From a virus, in IMG/VR virus record IMGVR_UViG_3300049043_000157, positions 1 to 34,390 of that record: a stretch of DNA of 34,390 nucleotides; one strand, given 5' to 3'. Made by a program: the position numbers and the translations under genes. Positions within the stretch are counted from its first letter, which is position 1, and each line of letters starts with the position of its first letter. Of this stretch, positions 3,290 to 14,563 are shown piece after piece. The notes below the pieces were generated by a model that had not been told where the DNA came from, searched no databases, and saw only the letters and a program-made list of their open reading frames with translations.

Positions 3290-3700
3290 ATGCTGCCCGC
3301 GCTCATACCAATAATTACAACGGTGCTTGATAAGATCTTGCCGGATCCGCAAGCAGCGGCAGACGCGAAGTTGAAAGCGCTGGAGATGGCGCAGAGAGGT
3401 GAGCTGGCAACGCTGGATGCGGATATGCGTCTTGCGCTGGGGCAACTTGAGGTCAACAAGGCTGAAGCGTCCACCGACATATTTCGAGGCGGTTGGCGCC
3501 CTGCCTGTGGATGGGTCTGCGCTGTGGGTTTAGCGTATTCGTTCTTGTTGCAGCCCATTCTGCCGTGGCTGGCGGCGCTGTTCGGAGCACAAGTGCCAGC
3601 GCTGCCATCCATAGACACGGACACGCTTATGGTGCTTCTGACGGGAATGCTAGGGTTAGGCGGACTTCGTACATTCGAGCGGGTAAAAGGCAAAGCCTGA
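3290..3700 (+). CDS. Holin, three-helix GTA-holin family
   Basis: A 136-residue protein from ATG 3290 with GAGGTGA just upstream; GTG 3284 is a weaker alternative. The N-terminal hydrophobic segment (LPALIPIITTVLDKILP) is followed by a helical charged region (residues about 20-60). Next comes the conserved block GGWRPACGWVCAVGLAYSFL, then QPILPWLAALFG and a last hydrophobic segment around DTLMVLLTGMLGLGGLRTFE ending in Arg and Lys. This matches the three-transmembrane holin family (Pfam Holin_3TM / GTA holin), where the GGWRP.CGW motif is characteristic. It would open the inner membrane to release the endolysin. It is the most clearly identified gene of the lysis cluster. Confidence 0.85.
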   Translation: MLPALIPIITTVLDKILPDPQAAADAKLKALEMAQRGELATLDADMRLALGQLEVNKAEASTDIFRGGWRPACGWVCAVGLAYSFLLQPILPWLAALFGAQVPALPSIDTDTLMVLLTGMLGLGGLRTFERVKGKA

Positions 3701-3721
3701 TCTTCTCCTATGGGAGGCGGT

Positions 3722-4015
3722 TTGATCCAATTGCGCCACGACCTTTGCCTTATCACCTGGGACGACGCCGCAGAACTCAATCTCGGCTGGCAGGACGAGT
3801 CCGACGTTGAGGCGAGGCCGATGCTGGTGCGGACGGTGGGTTTTCTCATTCGCAAGACCAAGGCGCATGTCATCGTGGCATCGACCATCGGTGATTTAGC
3901 GCACTGCCATGCGCAGTTTCAGATACCTCGAAAGATGATTGTCAGCATGCAGACCATTGCCAAGCGGGGCAGCGAATTTCCTGTAGCTACAGAGGTGGTA
4001 AATGACCAAGCCTAA
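3722..4015 (+). CDS. Conserved small phage protein, unknown function
   Basis: About 97 residues, from TTG 3722 with GGGAGG at 3712-3717 at good spacing. ATG 3710 is in frame but has no ribosome site and would put this Shine-Dalgarno inside the gene, so I prefer TTG. The sequence is soluble and mixed alpha/beta, with the motif LITWDDAAELNLGW near the start and QIPRKMIVSM near the end. Short proteins beginning with a T-W-D/E-D-A pattern and containing an I-P-R-x-M-I segment recur in small podoviruses near the lysis genes. No catalytic motif is visible. The 3' end overlaps the next gene by 14 bases. Confidence 0.55.
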   Translation: MIQLRHDLCLITWDDAAELNLGWQDESDVEARPMLVRTVGFLIRKTKAHVIVASTIGDLAHCHAQFQIPRKMIVSMQTIAKRGSEFPVATEVVNDQA

Positions 4016-7064: not shown

Positions 7065-7855
7065 ATTCGAACTCCGTTTCTCCGTAAATGTAAGCCGGCA
7101 GCTGTAACGCCTGTTCGCTGACATACCGGCTCGGCCAATTGTTTGTCTGCCTGCACGTCTGCACCATGCGCAGCAGCGTTGCGACTTCCTCAGCCGCCAT
7201 GTCCAGTGCGTCTTGCGGAACGTCGAAAACGCTAATCTCGTGTGGGCCGTCTTTTTCAACCGCGATGATCTTGCACTTGTTCGGCGCCCATCCGAGACCG
7301 TGTGTCAGCGCATTGGCGTACATGGCCATCTGAAGATGATAGCCATAACGCGCCGCTGATGCGCCGAATCGCCTGGCGTCCGCGCTCAAGCACGTCTTGA
7401 GGTCGATCAGAATCCGCCGGTCCGGAATGATCCAATCAGGGCGCGCCTTGCATGCCAGGTTAGTTTCTGGATCCGTCCAGGAGATTGGTTGTTCCATAAA
7501 ATCCGCCGTCGAGATATGGGCGCACAAGTGGATGCGACCGCACTGCGTCGGCCATTTCCATGGCAGTATCGATTTCTTGCGGCTTGAATATTGTCTTGCC
7601 TGCGTTTTCCTCCTGAAATTCTTTCCAAGCATTGCCCCGGCGATCGCCGCCCTCCCAAACAGCGTATTCGTGTCGAAACTTCTCCGGCTCAAACACAAGG
7701 GTATGCGTCGCCCGCCCCATTGCTAATGCGGGCGTGTCCGTACGTGCTTGCTTCAGCCTATAGCGGTAGACGGCCGGACTTTTTAGCATCCATTTCAGCG
7801 TCGACCAGTTCACCGCATCAATCAATGAATATTCGTTGCTGGTGCTTTCGCTCAT
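7057..7855 (-). CDS. PD-(D/E)XK exonuclease, RecE/YqaJ-like, frame-broken
   Basis: About 265 residues once one extra T is removed from the TTTT run at about 7497-7500. The start is ATG 7855, overlapping the upstream gene by four bases. The N-terminal part has the pattern typical of these nucleases (SLIDAVNWSTLKWMLKSPAV, then ALAMGRATHTLVFEP). The catalytic centre is ARPDWIIPDRRILIDLKTC: the first Asp follows Pro, and D-x-K lies in the IDLKT strand. The following YHLQMAMYANAL supplies the QxxxY motif. This is the signature of the exonuclease VIII/YqaJ/DUF3799 group, which resects double-stranded ends to make 3' single strands for annealing recombination. It lies upstream of the likely partner gene in the same operon. 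As written, the break splits the protein before the active site. Confidence 0.8.
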
Positions 7856-8037
7856 TTGATGATCCATCCAACCACGATGGCCAAAAACACCGCATAACCG
7901 ACCCAGAACAATCCGCATCGGGGTTTTCTCGGCGCGTGCCAGTCCGTCCATCCCGCCTCGCGACAGGATCGCGCAAACCGCAAGTTCCGCAGCGACGGGT
8001 CTATGGCTCGGATTTCCCGCAGGGTGCGATATGTCAT
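7852..8037 (-). CDS. Small protein with C-terminal membrane helix
   Basis: A 61-residue protein from ATG 8037, with GGAGG about nine bases upstream. The first 40 residues are basic and soluble (TLREIRAIDPSLRNLRFARS). The last 20 (CGLFWVGYAVFLAIVVGWII) form one membrane helix ending in Lys. It would be an inner-membrane protein with a cytoplasmic basic head. Four-base overlaps on both sides couple it to the exonuclease and to the upstream gene. Small membrane proteins of early phage operons sometimes inhibit host functions or exclude other phages; nothing here proves that. Confidence 0.6.
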   Translation of the reverse strand: MTYRTLREIRAIDPSLRNLRFARSCREAGWTDWHAPRKPRCGLFWVGYAVFLAIVVGWIIK

Positions 8038-8264
8038 AGCAGCGCCTCCGGCGCGTTGCCAAACGGCCAGCTGTCCGGCAGCTGTGGGAGTATCTCGGGA
8101 TGGGGAACAAGATCCTCGACGCTCTGGAGAATCAGCAGCGCCGCATCATGGTGACCGTGTTTGCGCAGCAATCTTGATGCGGCCAGTAGGGTTTCGCATG
8201 CCCCTTTATGCTGCGAAATGTCCACGACTCTTTGAATACTCATCATGCTCTTCAAGTCGGTCAT
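8034..8264 (-). CDS. Small early phage protein, unknown function
   Basis: A 76-residue protein from ATG 8264, preceded by AGGGGA. It is helical, with VDISQHKGACETLLAASRLL followed by a histidine-rich turn RKHGHHDAALLILQSVEDLV. The C-terminal part is proline-rich (PHPEILPQLPDSWP). The overall pattern resembles a short helical-hairpin repeat, but I do not recognise a family. It overlaps both neighbours by four bases. Longer in-frame readings extend into the upstream repeat array and are rejected because they have no start or ribosome site. Confidence 0.6.
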   Translation of the reverse strand: MTDLKSMMSIQRVVDISQHKGACETLLAASRLLRKHGHHDAALLILQSVEDLVPHPEILPQLPDSWPFGNAPEALL

Positions 8265-8842
8265 GCCGTCCCCTTTTGCTGACAAAATATCTCGCGGAAG
8301 CGGGCGGCTTGTGCGTCCCGCGCTGCGTCCCGCGCTGCGGCCCACGCTGCGTCCCGCGCTGCGGCCCACGCTGCGTCCCGCGCTGCGTCCCGCGCTGCGT
8401 CCCGCGCTGCGGCCCACGCTGCCCACGCTGCGTCCCGCGCTGCGGCCCACGCTGCGGCCCACGCTGCGTCCCGCGCTGCGGCCCACGCTGCGTCCCGCGC
8501 TGCGTCCCCCGCTGCGTTTCGCGCTGCGGCCAGTTCATCGTCCGTCGCCTGCCCGTACGCGTGCCGCTCGGCGACATCCAAAGCGGCCAGGCTGCGCGGA
8601 TCGGTCATCAGATGCTGGACATCCCTCGCGCAAGCGACAGCAAACAGGCGCATCTCGCGCCGGTGCCCTTCGACCGCGCGCAAGCACCACAAAGCATCGT
8701 CAAGGCCGTTGCTGTTTAGGATCGTTCCAAGCGCAAGCGGTTCGTTGTCGGCCTCGACCTTGCCGAGGTACGCCAGCAGTTTGCGCCAGCCGTCAACACA
8801 GGGACCGTGCGCGCGAATTGCGGTGAGCGTTGTGTAAATCAT
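8261..8842 (-). CDS. Alanine-rich repeat protein (AWAA/ARDA repeats)
   Basis: A 193-residue protein from ATG 8842, with GGGAGG upstream. Residues 1-105 form a conserved domain: IYTTLTAIRAHGPCVDGWRK, later LNSNGLDDALWCLRAVEGH and DPRSLAALDVAERHA. Residues about 118-180 are a tandem array of four-residue units, ARDA or AWAA, encoded by 12-base units. The array should form a long alanine-rich helix with Trp and Arg/Asp along its faces. I recognise the family from many phages and bacterial genomes, always with variable numbers of such repeats and no known function. The C-terminus (RFREIFCQQKG) is short and basic. The stop overlaps the next start. Confidence 0.75.
   Translation of the reverse strand: MIYTTLTAIRAHGPCVDGWRKLLAYLGKVEADNEPLALGTILNSNGLDDALWCLRAVEGHRREMRLFAVACARDVQHLMTDPRSLAALDVAERHAYGQATDDELAAARNAAGDAARDAAWAAARDAAWAAAWAAARDAAWAAWAAARDAARDAARDAAWAAARDAAWAAARDAARDAQAARFREIFCQQKGTA
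8310..8525 (-). repeat. 12-base tandem repeat array inside the alanine-rich gene
   Basis: About seventeen units of two closely related 12-mers, GCTGCGTCCCGC and GCTGCGGCCCAC as read on the plus strand, mixed in irregular order. One shortened nine-base unit (GCTGCCCAC) sits near 8417. Unit length is a multiple of three, so gain or loss of units keeps the reading frame. The degenerate units GCTGCGTCCCCC and GCTGCGTTTCGC mark the array's right end. Five of the six reading frames are open across the array, which produces long false readings there on both strands. Confidence 0.95.
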
Positions 8843-8843
8843 T

Positions 8844-9233
8844 TCAGATAGCCTCCCGCAGGAGCGTCGGCAGGTCCATCGGCTCGTATGGCGGCCGGAT
8901 CTCGCCGCGTTCCGCCCAAATACGTGCAAGGCGTTCGTTCTCTTTTGCCGCCTTGCGGTCGAGCATGCGGCATGCCCTCTTGTAACCTTCCCAGCGGTCC
9001 CATTCGCGCTCATGCGCGCGGGGATCTTGGTACACAGCATCGGCATTGGCCATTACCTGGGTGATAATTTCACTTGCGCACGTAGCAAGCGAGGTTGCGG
9101 CGTCCGTGTCGTCGGCCGCCTCGAGCATCAGCTCGCACGTGATGCCTGTTTCAATTTCCCGCTCCCACGGGTCATCGATCTCAAGTAACGCCTCGAGAAA
9201 TGCCGCGCGCGCTGCTATCAGTTTTGCTGACAT
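8844..9233 (-). CDS. First gene of the leftward early operon, unknown function
   Basis: A 129-residue protein from ATG 9233, with GAGAGGG upstream; longer in-frame readings extend through the promoter region and are rejected. It is helical and acidic in the first half (FLEALLEIDDPWEREIETGI, later LMLEAADDTDAA). The second half is basic (WDRWEGYKRACRMLDRKAAK). It holds the position where lambdoid phages keep a CI-type repressor, but there is no helix-turn-helix or peptidase-like domain here. I do not recognise the family. The stop precedes the next start by one base. Confidence 0.6.
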   Translation of the reverse strand: MSAKLIAARAAFLEALLEIDDPWEREIETGITCELMLEAADDTDAATSLATCASEIITQVMANADAVYQDPRAHEREWDRWEGYKRACRMLDRKAAKENERLARIWAERGEIRPPYEPMDLPTLLREAI

Positions 9234-9998: not shown

Positions 9999-10388
9999 TC
10001 ATGAGCGGGATTGTACGATTGGGTCGGGACGCCAGCTTGCGGCAGACCGACAGCGGCATGCAGATGTTGTCGTTCGATGGCGCGTACAACTATGGAAGAG
10101 AAAAAAACGCAGTGGGTGCGTTTTACGCTTTTTGGCAAACGGGCCGAAACCGTTGCGCCGTACATGAAAAAAGGAACGGCATTGTCGGTTGTCATCGACG
10201 AGCCGCGCACGGAGCTGTACGAGAAAAAGGATGGGACCGCAGGCGTCTCCCTGAGCGGCATCCTTCTGGCGTTTGATTTTGCCGGCGGCAAGAATTCGGA
10301 TTTGGAAGCGCCAGCGGCTGCGCCTGGCCGGCAACCCGCGGCTGGCATCAGCGGCATTACTTCAATGGAAGACGATATTCCGTTCTAG
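9995..10388 (+). CDS. ssb: Single-stranded DNA-binding protein, frame-broken
   Basis: About 130 residues once one extra A is removed from the A7 run at 10100-10106. ATG 9995 has AAGGA upstream, with ATG 10001 as alternative. The N-terminal part reads GIVRLGRDASLRQTDSGMQM and FDGAYNYGR. After the break come TQWVRFTLFGKRAETVAPYM and KGTALSVVIDEP, the typical SSB OB-fold strands. A glycine/proline/alanine-rich linker leads to the acidic tail MEDDIPF, the C-terminal motif by which SSBs recruit partner proteins. It would coat single strands made by the exonuclease and by replication. The tail and fold make the identification firm; the frame break is most likely an error. Confidence 0.9.
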
Positions 10389-10616: not shown

Positions 10617-10796
10617 GTGCGCTCGGGCAACCGCACGCGCGGCGAAAAACATCACCGCGCTAAACTGACGGATGAACAGGTCGCACGTATTCGGCGGCGC
10701 TACATAAAGGGCGTGCGCGGTTATGTCGTGCTTGCCCAGGAAGAGGGTTGTTCGCCGTGGACGATTCGCGACATCGTTCTCCACTGGACCAGATAA
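10617..10796 (+). CDS. Small helix-turn-helix DNA-binding protein
   Basis: A 59-residue protein probably starting at GTG 10617, one base after the upstream stop; an ATG at 10587 would overlap the upstream gene by 29 bases. The sequence RGEKHHRAKLTDEQVARIRR leads into YIKGVRGYVVLAQEEGCSPW and TIRDIVLHWTR. The pattern H-x-R-A-K-L-T-x-E-Q-V-x-x-I-R followed by a second and third helix is typical of small homeodomain-like HTH proteins and of the DNA-binding tails of phage HNH homing endonucleases. The nuclease half is absent, so it is either a stand-alone DNA-binding protein or a remnant. Confidence 0.55.
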   Translation: MRSGNRTRGEKHHRAKLTDEQVARIRRRYIKGVRGYVVLAQEEGCSPWTIRDIVLHWTR

Positions 10797-10797
10797 A

Positions 10798-11292
10798 TTG
10801 ATCCGCCGCAAACCAGGGTTTCGTCCGTCCCTCGCCGAAACAAAGCGGCGAAACCAGGAGGCACTCGATTTTTTGCGGGCGCTGTCGACGCGGGAGGACG
10901 CGCCGCGATTGGACTTGCAGGCAAAGGCGAAACGCGTTGTGCAGCCGCGGCCGAAGACGCTCGAGCGCGACGTTCTGAAGGCAGTCCTTTTCTATTTGCG
11001 CCGGCATCGTAAGGTTGCTTGGGTAGGCCGAATCAATTCTGGTGCGGCCAGGAACGAGAACGGACAATTTTTGCGTTTCCACACGATTCCTGGGTGCTCG
11101 GACATCATTGGCCAGATGAGGTCTGGGCATTTCCTTGCGATTGAGGTCAAGCGTCCGGGGGAGAAGCCGACCCCGGAGCAGATGATATTTTTGGATATGG
11201 TATTGCAGCATAGCGGGTGCGCCGGCTGGTGCGATTCGGTGGAGGCGTGCGAGCGGTTGATTGCTGGGTGGGCGACACAGGTGGCCGATTAA
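10798..11292 (+). CDS. VRR-NUC domain nuclease
   Basis: About 164 residues if TTG 10798 is the start, directly after the upstream stop; ATG 10723 would add 25 residues and overlap that gene. After a basic N-terminus comes the VRR-NUC core: LERDVLKAVLFYLRRHRKVA, GRINSGAARNENGQFLRF, then PGCSDIIG and FLAIEVKRPG. The Asp of GCSD and the E-x-K of AIEVKRPG are the PD-(D/E)XK catalytic residues. The tail QMIFLDMVLQHSGCAGWCDS is typical. Stand-alone VRR-NUC proteins are frequent in phages and cleave branched DNA such as Holliday junctions, so a resolving role before packaging is likely. The stop overlaps the next start. Confidence 0.85.
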   Translation: MIRRKPGFRPSLAETKRRNQEALDFLRALSTREDAPRLDLQAKAKRVVQPRPKTLERDVLKAVLFYLRRHRKVAWVGRINSGAARNENGQFLRFHTIPGCSDIIGQMRSGHFLAIEVKRPGEKPTPEQMIFLDMVLQHSGCAGWCDSVEACERLIAGWATQVAD

Positions 11293-12603
11293 TGAGCGCT
11301 CCAATCCCTCGCGTGCGTTTGGTCACGTTGGGCAGCAATCCGTTGCCTGACATTCCTGCGGCAGACCATCCAGCCGCGCATGAAATAATCGGCGTGGTCC
11401 GCCGCCTCGCGGACGACGACAATGTCGGCGATATTGCGGCCTTCCACAACGAGCAAAACCTGGGCGGAAAATTCGACGACTCGATAGTTCGCCGACTGGT
11501 TGCGTACGCGCTGCAATCGGAGGCGCCGGTCGGTTCGGAGGCGCGTTTCGACGTTCGCTCTCTGTCGGAAATCGTCGAGCGGCCGTACGCGACATGGATC
11601 GTTAGGGAGGTCATGCCGGCGTCCGGCCTGGCGGTAATCTACGGCGGACCTGGCAGCGGGAAAACATTTTTGATGCTTGATATGGCAATGGCGATCTGTC
11701 GCGGCATCAAGTGGCACGGCCGGCGCGTCAAGCGGGGCGTGGTTGTTTACGTGGCGGGCGAGGGCGCGCTGCGTTCTAGAGTGGAGGCGTACATGCGGCA
11801 CCATAATATGACGAGCGGAGGATATTCCGGATTTTTTTGCCATCGAGTCGCCGGTCAATTTGCTTGACCCGACTGCGGATCTTCTGGACTTGATCGAGTC
11901 GATACAGGCAAAGGTTGGAGACCGGCCGATTAGAATGGTCATTGTTGACACTCTGGCGCGCAGCATGCCGGGCGGCAACGAAAACGCCTCCGAGGACATG
12001 GGCGCGGTGATTGGTTCGGCCGGCAAACTGGCGAGCGCGTTCAGCTGTCTTCTGGCGTTCGTCCATCATTCGGGCAAGGACGACACCAAGGGTTCTCGCG
12101 GTCACTCAAGCCTCAAGGGCGCATGCGACGTAGAAATCAGCGTCAGGCGCGAAAAAGACCTCCGCGAAGCGACGGCCGAGAAGGTCAGAGACGGTCCGGA
12201 TGCCGCGTCGTTGCTGGTTTTTCGCCTTGCGCCGGTCGACTTGGGGCCAGTGTCGGATTTTGACGATGATGCTGAGGAATGGGAGCGGATCACCTCGTGC
12301 GTAGTTGAGCCTGTCGACGAGCCGCTGATTGCTCGAGGCGATCCTCCGACCAAGAATCAGCAGGCCGCACTGTCTGCCATCAAGGCGACGCTGGCGGCCA
12401 CTGGAAAGCGCGCAATGACCCAGGAAGAGGCGCTCAAGGCGGTACGTACGGGCACGGGCATGGCCCGGAATCGAGCGCATGAAGCGATTGCCGGGCTGAT
12501 AAAAAATTGCTACCTGAAGCACTCTGCCATGGGCGGAATAGAAGTAATTCTCGATTCAGGGCGTCCGAAATCGTCCGAAACAGCGTCCGAATTGCTTTTT
12601 TAG
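11292..12603 (+). CDS. RepA-like AAA ATPase (AAA_25), probable replicative helicase, frame-broken
   Basis: About 436 residues once one extra T is removed from the T7 run at 11831-11837. ATG 11292 overlaps the nuclease stop. An N-terminal region of about 100 residues precedes the RecA-type domain. Walker A is GGPGSGKT (residues about 118-125), Walker B is MVIVDT (about 215-220), and FVHHSGKDD is the motif-3-like strand with a His sensor. The segment KGSRGHSSLKGACD is typical of RepA/RSF1010-type hexameric helicases and their phage relatives. The C-terminal part contains a winged-helix-like segment (TQEEALKAVRTGTGMARNRA). It probably unwinds DNA at the origin, which may be the repeat array overlapping its 3' end. 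No primase or polymerase is seen, so host enzymes are probably recruited. Confidence 0.8.
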
Positions 12604-12744
12604 CGTCCGAAATCGTCCGAAAAATGGTTAAAAAAGCGTCCGAAACCGTCCGAATCCGTCCGAATGCGTCCGTCCGTCCGTCCGAATCCGTATATATAGA
12701 TACGGATTCGGTACGTGCGGACGGGGCGTTCGATTTTTCGGACG
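12562..12744. repeat. Iteron-like CGTCCGAA array, candidate replication origin
   Basis: Nine exact copies of CGTCCGAA start at 12562, 12572, 12584, 12604, 12614, 12637, 12647, 12657 and 12679. Degenerate CGTCCG units fill 12667-12680, and one inverted copy TTCGGACG lies at 12737-12744. Many spacings are 10 bases, one helical turn, so a protein could bind on one face. The array covers the 3' end of the ATPase gene and the 5' end of the next. Position beside a replication ATPase fits an iteron origin. Repeats and spacing are seen directly; origin function is inference. Confidence 0.7.
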
Positions 12745-12992
12745 TGCCGAGCACTCTGGCCGGCCTTGATGAGCGGCGAGCGTATCTCGACGAAATGGAC
12801 CCGCTGCAAGCAGGAGGGTGGAAACTGGTCGAGGGCGACGAGTGGCGGATCGGGAAACTGCCGGCTGGGGATGATGCGTTATGGGCGATGATTGAGCGCG
12901 CGGATGCACGGTTCGGATGCGATGACACAAGCGATGAGGCGCGGATGAGGTTTGCGCGGGCTAAGTCAGTTAACCAGAAAAAGGGGAAGTGA
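12624..12992 (+). CDS. Small replication-region protein, unknown function
   Basis: About 122 residues if ATG 12624 is the start. There is no ribosome site there, and the first 25 residues are encoded by the iteron-like array, giving a basic, low-complexity N-terminus (VKKASETVRIRPNASVRPSE). The real start could lie further in. The remainder is acidic and globular: FDFSDVPSTLAGLDERRAYL, LQAGGWKLVEGDEWRIGKLP and a C-terminal helix ARMRFARAKSVNQ. The stop overlaps the next start (TGATG). No domain is recognised. Placement right after the RepA-like ATPase suggests an accessory replication protein. Confidence 0.5.
   Translation: MVKKASETVRIRPNASVRPSESVYIDTDSVRADGAFDFSDVPSTLAGLDERRAYLDEMDPLQAGGWKLVEGDEWRIGKLPAGDDALWAMIERADARFGCDDTSDEARMRFARAKSVNQKKGK
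12682..12711. repeat. Perfect 12-base palindrome with AT-rich centre
   Basis: CCGAATCCGTAT (12682-12693) and ATACGGATTCGG (12700-12711) are exact reverse complements separated by ATATAG. The left arm includes the end of the last CGTCCGAA unit. It can form a cruciform or a strong RNA hairpin, and the TATATATA centre would melt easily. A role as unwinding element or hairpin at an origin is plausible. As RNA it could also regulate the overlapping small gene. Confidence 0.75.
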
Positions 12993-13787: not shown

Positions 13788-14563
13788 TTAATTGTCGGTT
13801 TCTGGCGTTAAGCCGCCAGCTCTTAAGATGCGGTCGGCAGCACCAAAATTTTTTGGGCGCTCTTATTCGGGATGTCGTTACCTTGGAGCCAATGTTGTAT
13901 ATAACCACGCGCTTCATCCTGGCCGGGTAAATGACAGACCGCGCAGCAGATCAGCGCAACCGATTCTGCCTCTACTTCTCGAATGCTTTTTGGTGTTCGT
14001 TCGCTGTCGGTCATCGTCGATTCGGCCGTGTGCCCGAGGACGACGTGCGCGATTTCGTGGAACAATGTTTTATGGGGCAGCGCTGCTACTGGATTAATCG
14101 AGACGTTTCGGCCAACTGCGTAGCCTTGACAATTGCCGTCTGTCGACTCAAAAGGGCGCTCCTCAATTTGCAATTGTGCTAACGCTAATTTAGCACTCCA
14201 GTCGGTGTTAACAGTGCGCTCCTGGTATGGTTGTCCTTCAGTTTGCGACAAAACAAACCAGTAATTCTTGAGAACAAAAGTCTGGAAAATTTCATCCTGA
14301 CCGTGTTTTTCCTTTTTAATCGTAATCGGCATGCACAAATGGATTGCCTTTGCTCCCTTTACAACAGACCGGCCCAAGCTCTTCCATTTTTTGAAGGTTG
14401 CAATAGGACCGACTGGTAATTCTCGGTCTTGGCATTGTGACCAGGCAAGGATCTGGTTCCCGATGCTGTAGTTATGGAATGCCGTATAGGCGGTCGAAAT
14501 AATCCCAGGTTTTTGCACTGCTTCAATTAAAAGTTGCGACCATTGGACGGCAGCGGATTGCAT
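13788..14563 (-). CDS. ArdC-like antirestriction protein: ssDNA-binding domain plus metallopeptidase, frame-broken at the end
   Basis: A protein of about 258 residues from ATG 14563, with GGAGAGA upstream. The N-terminal domain (residues 1-125) matches the ArdC ssDNA-binding domain (DUF1738): WSQLLIEAVQKPGIISTAYT, FHNYSIGNQILAW, then ATFKKWKSLGRSVVKGAKAI. The C-terminal domain has the zinc-peptidase motif HEIAHVVLGH (HExxH at 169-173) and REVEAES for the third ligand. ArdC proteins of conjugative plasmids protect incoming DNA from type I restriction. In phages the combination is less discussed, and the peptidase substrate is unknown. The end is shifted by one missing base in the run at about 13841-13850; restored, it reads KIFGAADRILRAG and stops at 13788. 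It is transcribed opposite to the late genes from its own promoter region. Confidence 0.85.

Follow-up and report, generated by a model that had tools for sequence, protein, structure and literature searches.

A probable replication origin behind a RepA-like phage helicase gene, with repeats that co-vary with the predicted winged helix of the helicase

The helicase gene and the repeat array behind it

The window, that is, the whole stretch of DNA analysed here (34,390 nucleotides, the entire virus record IMGVR_UViG_3300049043_000157), encodes portal, major head, head-closure and large-terminase proteins, as well as genes for replication and recombination. The latter comprise an exonuclease VIII-like protein (DUF3799) on the minus strand at 7460-8110 (phrog_412, E 2.4e-24; PF12684, E 2.6e-10) and, on the plus strand, a single-strand DNA-binding protein at 10011-10388 (phrog_44, E 1.2e-12), a VRR-NUC endonuclease resembling Holliday-junction resolvases upstream in the replication module at 10723-11292 (PF08774, E 9e-6; phrog_93, E 2e-12), and a RepA-like helicase. 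The N-terminal part of the helicase, including the Walker A motif, lies at 11217-11867 (+; Pfam AAA_25, E 3.7e-16; 68% identity to residues 2-184 of L001, the closest relative with an intact gene), and its C-terminal part follows in a second frame at 11860-12603 (+; AAA_25, E 7e-12; 74% identity to L001 residues 178-423). Near 11,815, not far from seven consecutive T, a one-base shift of the reading frame relative to L001 breaks the gene, which may reflect a sequencing error, decay or a programmed frameshift; no intact helicase gene is found in this contig, and L001 encodes the protein in a single frame of 423 residues. An anti-restriction protein (phrog_7245) is encoded on the minus strand at 13823-14563, just 3' of the replication region.

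Matches to PF13481 (AAA_25) were found by Pfam in the helicases of the window and its relatives, and the helicase core is homologous to RepA of plasmid RSF1010 (1g8y), with a RecA fold, as seen both in a profile match (E 9.6e-20) and in a fold match (E 1.6e-11). Pfam gave no match to DUF927 in these helicases, detecting AAA_25 instead, nor to a RepA_N domain, and no primase domain was matched in the 423-residue protein of the window and L001; a distant relative, L293, carries Prim-Pol/PriCT-2. The C-terminal end of L001 is predicted to form a three-helix, two-strand winged helix, the AlphaFold2 model placing helices at residues 355-371, 378-389 and 393-405 together with two strands (pLDDT 87-97). 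The corresponding coding segment of the window, at 12348-12542 (+), aligns without gaps with L001 residues 355-419, and its recognition helix is encoded at approximately 12462-12500. In a model of L041, which is of modest confidence (pLDDT 66), the variable residues sit in helix three of the winged-helix domain, and a fold search with this model returned winged-helix proteins (ORC, CAP) only at E 0.3 or worse, matches that are no more than suggestive of a winged helix; searching solved structures with the sequence of the winged helix alone yielded nothing credible.

An iteron array occupies positions 12562-12744 (+). As the earlier note had reported, it holds nine exact direct copies of CGTCCGAA, starting at 12562, 12572, 12584, 12604, 12614, 12637, 12647, 12657 and 12679, and one exact inverted copy at 12737-12744, to which an inverted copy with one mismatch can be added at 12716-12723. 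The description of many copies at 10-base spacing applies to four of the eight start-to-start distances, the others being 12, 20, 23 and 22. The array is real and non-random: the whole window contains 15 exact matches to CGTCCGAA against 1.81 expected, a count reached by none of 100 dinucleotide shuffles, and only five copies lie beyond the array in 34 kb, each of them solitary. A pattern search of the record with CGTCCGAANCGTCCGAA found no match because the pattern does not fit the actual gaps between repeats, which are of at least 2 nt. Cumulative GC skew tracks gene orientation along the window with no switch at 12.6 kb, and therefore speaks neither for nor against an origin at this site. 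Elsewhere, GGGACGCA-type DNA repeats at 8311-8528 fall within a gene for a repeat protein (ARDAAWAAARDAAW..., phrog_18326) on the minus strand at 8261-9046; they are a coding repeat unrelated to the CGTCCGAA array.

The array had also been described as overlapping the 3' end of the ATPase gene. The open reading frame of the window does run into the array, and its last 15 or so residues are array sequence itself, but this overlap is partly a read-through of a few repeats, since the helicase of L001 ends (GGIEVITDE, then the stop codon) just ahead of its own array. On the other side, the next open reading frame, at 12624-12992 (+), crosses the array with its 5' end if begun at ATG 12624, a later ATG such as that at 12795 being more plausible, and it had no family match in profile searches. 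The idea that coding and cis functions are combined here is weakened by the relatives, in most of which the array is intergenic; in L002, an extra small reading frame (3676-3960) separates the helicase stop codon from the array, which is intact some 290 bp further on.

Arrays in relatives and the palindrome

Relatives were drawn from IMG/VR (five seeds), whose contigs are partial, from phage and plasmid records, and from genomes, with the genome collection contributing only three. The 296 loci with at least 380 bases downstream fell into 53 groups (70% identity over the C-terminal 250 residues), and the count of the most frequent 7-mer in the 380 bases at the stop codon was compared with that of 100 shuffles. 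Thirty-one of the 53 groups carry a significant array just past the helicase stop codon, above all 100 shuffles, and in 30 of these the array also outdoes every other window of its own locus in repeat density. The distance from stop codon to first repeat has a median of 8 nt (range 0-42, 30 loci), and copies are often 9-12 nt apart. The array is kept in place across very divergent helicase loci, with repeat letters that differ by lineage: CGTCCGAA, GCGGGACA, GGACAAATGG, GTCTACA, CTACAAA, GTCCGAA, CGGGACA, CGTGACA, CAAATGG, TGCGGAA, GCGGAGA, CGCAACA, TGAACCA and AAGTGAG, among others.

The same design is present in Roseobacter phage CRP-811 (CTACAAA), Rhizobium phage RHph_N65 (GGCGGAGAT), Alteromonas phage PB15 and Salicola phage CGphi29, on plasmids of Methylobacterium and Caenibius, and in two integrase-AlpA-helicase-capsid elements of enterobacteria. 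The latter (L300 and L299, on E. coli and Klebsiella records) have repeats of their own and look like capsid-forming satellites. The remaining 22 groups miss the significance test, some because their repeats are degenerate or displaced and some for want of an array. L290, L291, L296 and L302 appear to lack one, so the array is not universal, and none was seen in Caulobacter phage GB2A, mycobacteriophage Optimus, Microcystis phage Mae-JY30 or a Photobacterium plasmid. Phage records searched at the DNA level with the 3 kb surrounding the array of the window gave no match.

The palindrome of the window, CCGAATCCGTATATATAGATACGGATTCGG, covers 30 bp at 12682-12711 (no strand assigned), has an AT-rich centre, and is the counterpart of a hairpin found in relatives. 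Described earlier as a perfect palindrome of 12 bases, it has 12 perfect pairs that enclose a 6-nt loop, ATATAG; the element can alternatively be drawn with 15-nt arms and one mismatch. The array does not end there, as had been proposed: the palindrome lies inside the array, because the mismatched and the exact inverted copies of CGTCCGAA both come after it. A hairpin with a TA-containing loop, a criterion chosen after the sequences had been viewed, was present at 25 of 39 array loci, compared with 78 of 715 control windows, examples being CCC-TTTA-GGG, GTGTAT-GT-ATACAC and CTTAAG. A blind 'best hairpin' score, by which 19 of 53 loci exceed the 95th percentile of controls, is only mildly informative because inverted repeats make hairpins too; limiting the comparison to hairpins with TA in the loop gave the clearer result.

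In the marine family, the hairpin is flanked by a direct and an inverted repeat, as read by eye, and its stem varies jointly on both sides (GGTGTGTGTAT/ATACACACC in L053 versus GGGGTGTGTAT/ATACACCCC in L070; also GGGTGCGGG versus GGGTGCGTT, with matching right arms), changes that were likewise read by eye. In an alignment of 21 hairpins four Gs stand opposite three Cs, in an ambiguous register. It is of note that L249, L273, L190 and L239, whose repeats are of the CGTCACG/TGTAACA type, have an additional GGTTATAACTAACCTA-like palindrome followed by a long hairpin 3' of the helicase; in L190 and L239 the gene beyond the long hairpin encodes an antiterminator.

Co-variation of the repeats with the helicase C-terminus

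Among 95 loci retained after thinning at 95%, similarity of the iterons correlates at 0.60 with identity of the helicase C-terminus versus 0.46 with identity of the core. Controlling for the core leaves the effect of the C-terminus in place (partial r 0.45, permutation p 0.001), whereas that of the core given the C-terminus is -0.15. Once the next gene is included as well, the C-terminus carries a standardised weight of 0.82, the core one of -0.27 and the next gene one of 0.02. The repeat letters track the winged-helix domain, and neither the helicase core nor the next gene.

Pairs of similar phages locate the variation. In five such pairs, identity falls sharply between about -300 and +180 nt relative to the helicase stop codon, with flanks that are mostly about 80-100% identical on both sides; this valley, of approximately 0.5 kb, runs from the winged-helix-coding end of the gene to the end of the array. 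Of the 26 positions at which the helicases of L005 and L002 disagree, 19 fall within the last 70 or so of 651 residues, and their arrays consist solely of GCGTGACA-type repeats in L005 and solely of GCGGGACA-type repeats in L002. L041 and L050 form another natural pair, whose cores are nearly identical and whose repeats differ. Within the marine family, helices of the form K/R-x-L-W/F-W-R-V-K pair with GTCTAC (11 loci, 95% thinning) and those of the A-W-x-R type with GACAAA (17 loci, 95% thinning), so that recognition-helix class and repeat class agree in all 28 classifiable loci; one further locus is a tie and another is unclassified. The helix classes were defined after the data had been viewed. 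On a tree of core DNA, at least five changes of repeat type are observed, and the helix type changes along every time; at least three of these joint switches lie on strongly supported branches, a number so small that a sign test is not significant. Taken from sequence comparison, these patterns suggest that the winged-helix end and the array behave as one specificity cassette, which phages that are otherwise alike swap or alter as a whole.

Origin reading, rival explanations and known systems

The array and palindrome very probably constitute a phage replication origin, the repeats of which would be read by the winged helix of the adjacent helicase. The iteron-type origin beside a RepA-like helicase that the earlier note had put forward is supported, with the conserved place of the array, its occurrence on plasmids and satellite-like elements and its co-variation with the winged helix all pointing the same way. 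In the mechanism that we propose, the C-terminal winged helix would bind the repeats, and helicase subunits would collect on the several copies to either side of the AT-centred palindrome; the hexameric helicase could then load itself on DNA that is opened or extruded at the palindrome, after which a primase, whether fused, encoded nearby or supplied by the host, would prime DNA synthesis. The palindrome might serve as an opening site, as a start site for primase or as a signal for bidirectional loading.

Four other explanations have to be weighed, one of which retains the origin and changes only its reader. Since the C-terminus and the array are adjacent, recombination could link the two without any binding, and both lie within one identity valley; some other protein of phage or host might then bind the repeats. 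This is unlikely: the next gene adjoins the array on its other side and yet gives no independent signal (weight 0.02), and the fit between recognition-helix residues and repeat class extends to every classifiable locus. An operator, at which a repressor, possibly the helicase itself, would bind the repeats while the hairpin stops transcription, is less probable again. Repeats and hairpin do sit between two genes, repressors often have winged helices, and one weak terminator-like site is found at 12718-12732; however, the array is downstream of the helicase gene, away from its promoter, no promoter-like site was found at the array, no T run follows the palindrome at 12682-12711, and 5-12 repeats at about one helical turn exceed the usual operator. 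An operator role could nevertheless coexist with origin function.

Terminase sites can pair repeats with a palindrome, which brings to mind a cos or pac packaging site, where the small terminase would bind repeats around a palindromic cutting site, and in some relatives the gene past the array is indeed a terminase (large in L046, small in L154 and L159). Packaging is nonetheless very improbable, because the gene behind the array varies, being in other relatives a Holliday-junction resolvase, an antiterminator, a DNA methyltransferase, a single-strand binding protein or a gene of unknown function; furthermore, the arrays follow the helicase C-terminus rather than the next gene, and the large terminase of the window is encoded 2.2 kb further on. 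Least credible, to the point of being nearly dismissed, is that the array is merely the 5' end of a gene for a repetitive (SVRP-like) peptide with no role in cis: a reading frame at 12507-12992 is open across it, but has no family match, copies occur on both strands at spacings that are mostly not multiples of three (10, 20, 23, 22), and relatives retain the array though its letters change.

Several known systems resemble the origin proposed here, in which the helicase would read its own array. The alpha protein of phage P4 is a helicase whose C-terminal, origin-binding winged helix reads iterons; it belongs to another helicase superfamily (SF3) and uses separate ori and crr sites. In SaPI Rep (Ubeda et al. 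2007, as reported in PMC7581432), the C-terminal domain recognises iterons directly downstream of its own gene, and the likeness lies in short iterons directly 3' of the gene for a helicase, here a putative initiator. A staphylococcal-island protein of the DUF927 family is reported as a helicase in work cited by PMC5862659 (ref. 38 there), and is taken to be of the SaPI Rep type; in contrast, the motor here is a RecA-fold RepA/AAA_25 domain, found mainly in phages, and not DUF927. The isolated C-terminal domain of SCC Cch2 binds its repeats in vitro, and SCCmec Cch2 likewise has intergenic direct repeats after the helicase gene with hairpin-forming inverted repeats nearby (PMC7581432), but it unwinds 3'-5', belongs to another helicase family and resides in a staphylococcal cassette, outside any phage context, and its putative origin has three 5-nt iterons. 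The layout known for SaPI Rep and Cch2, with iterons bound by the helicase itself and placed here on a RecA-fold RepA core, appears to be the best explanation of the locus.

The plasmid RSF1010 (IncQ) has the RepA homologous to the helicase core, and there a separate protein, RepC, melts oriV (PMC8965321). Its 279-residue RepA matches the core alone, whereas here a winged helix is fused to the helicase; no separate RepC was seen among the genes of the window that were scanned, the locus offering this fused domain instead, and its next gene has no family match. For the PrimQH primase-helicases, some of which have RepA-type motors, origin recognition by a C-terminal winged helix was proposed in 2018, with no origin identified (PMC5862659); a single polypeptide there unites a primase, a helicase of RepA type and a winged helix at the C-terminus, unlike the protein of the window, which has no fused primase. 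In the PLE satellites of Vibrio cholerae, the RepA_N DNA-binding domain and the ori iterons co-vary and swap as a module, as shown by experiment (PMC8263062, PMC7145576), and selection for the swaps is attributed to a phage nuclease mimicking the initiator (PMC8263062). The PLE initiator differs in fold and gene, has no predicted helicase activity and reads iterons of about 30 bp; a similar conflict could, by analogy, drive cassette swaps here. Helicase-adjacent arrays of this kind were not found described in the literature searched, coverage of which is incomplete; a replication origin goes unmentioned in a paper on a Roseobacter phage in which a Prim-Pol/AAA_25 protein is named (PMC11288001), and AAA_25 proteins were still listed without described function in 2022 (PMC8965321).

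A broader proposal, which we advance tentatively and at slightly below even odds, is that of a widespread type of replicon shared by phages, satellites and plasmids. Its RecA-fold helicase would use the winged helix that it carries to load itself at an origin just past the gene, and winged helix, iterons and hairpin would evolve together as a half-kilobase cassette, making up a type system with interchangeable members; satellites or competing phages, by targeting origins or mimicking them, may exert the pressure behind it. The cassette provides a concrete site and a concrete domain for the proposed winged-helix recognition of origins, and since sister phages differ mainly in winged helix and array, the proposal is directly testable by cross-binding. 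If it is true, replication origins would be placed for a large group of uncultured phages, replication specificity would be switched while the rest of the replication gene stays unchanged, and many natural pairs would become available for reading the DNA-recognition code of winged helices. L001 and the window on the one hand and L067 on the other have dissimilar types of winged helix, both accompanied by CGTCCGAA repeats; this counts against a winged-helix reader of the array, and suggests that the two types have converged on one repeat.
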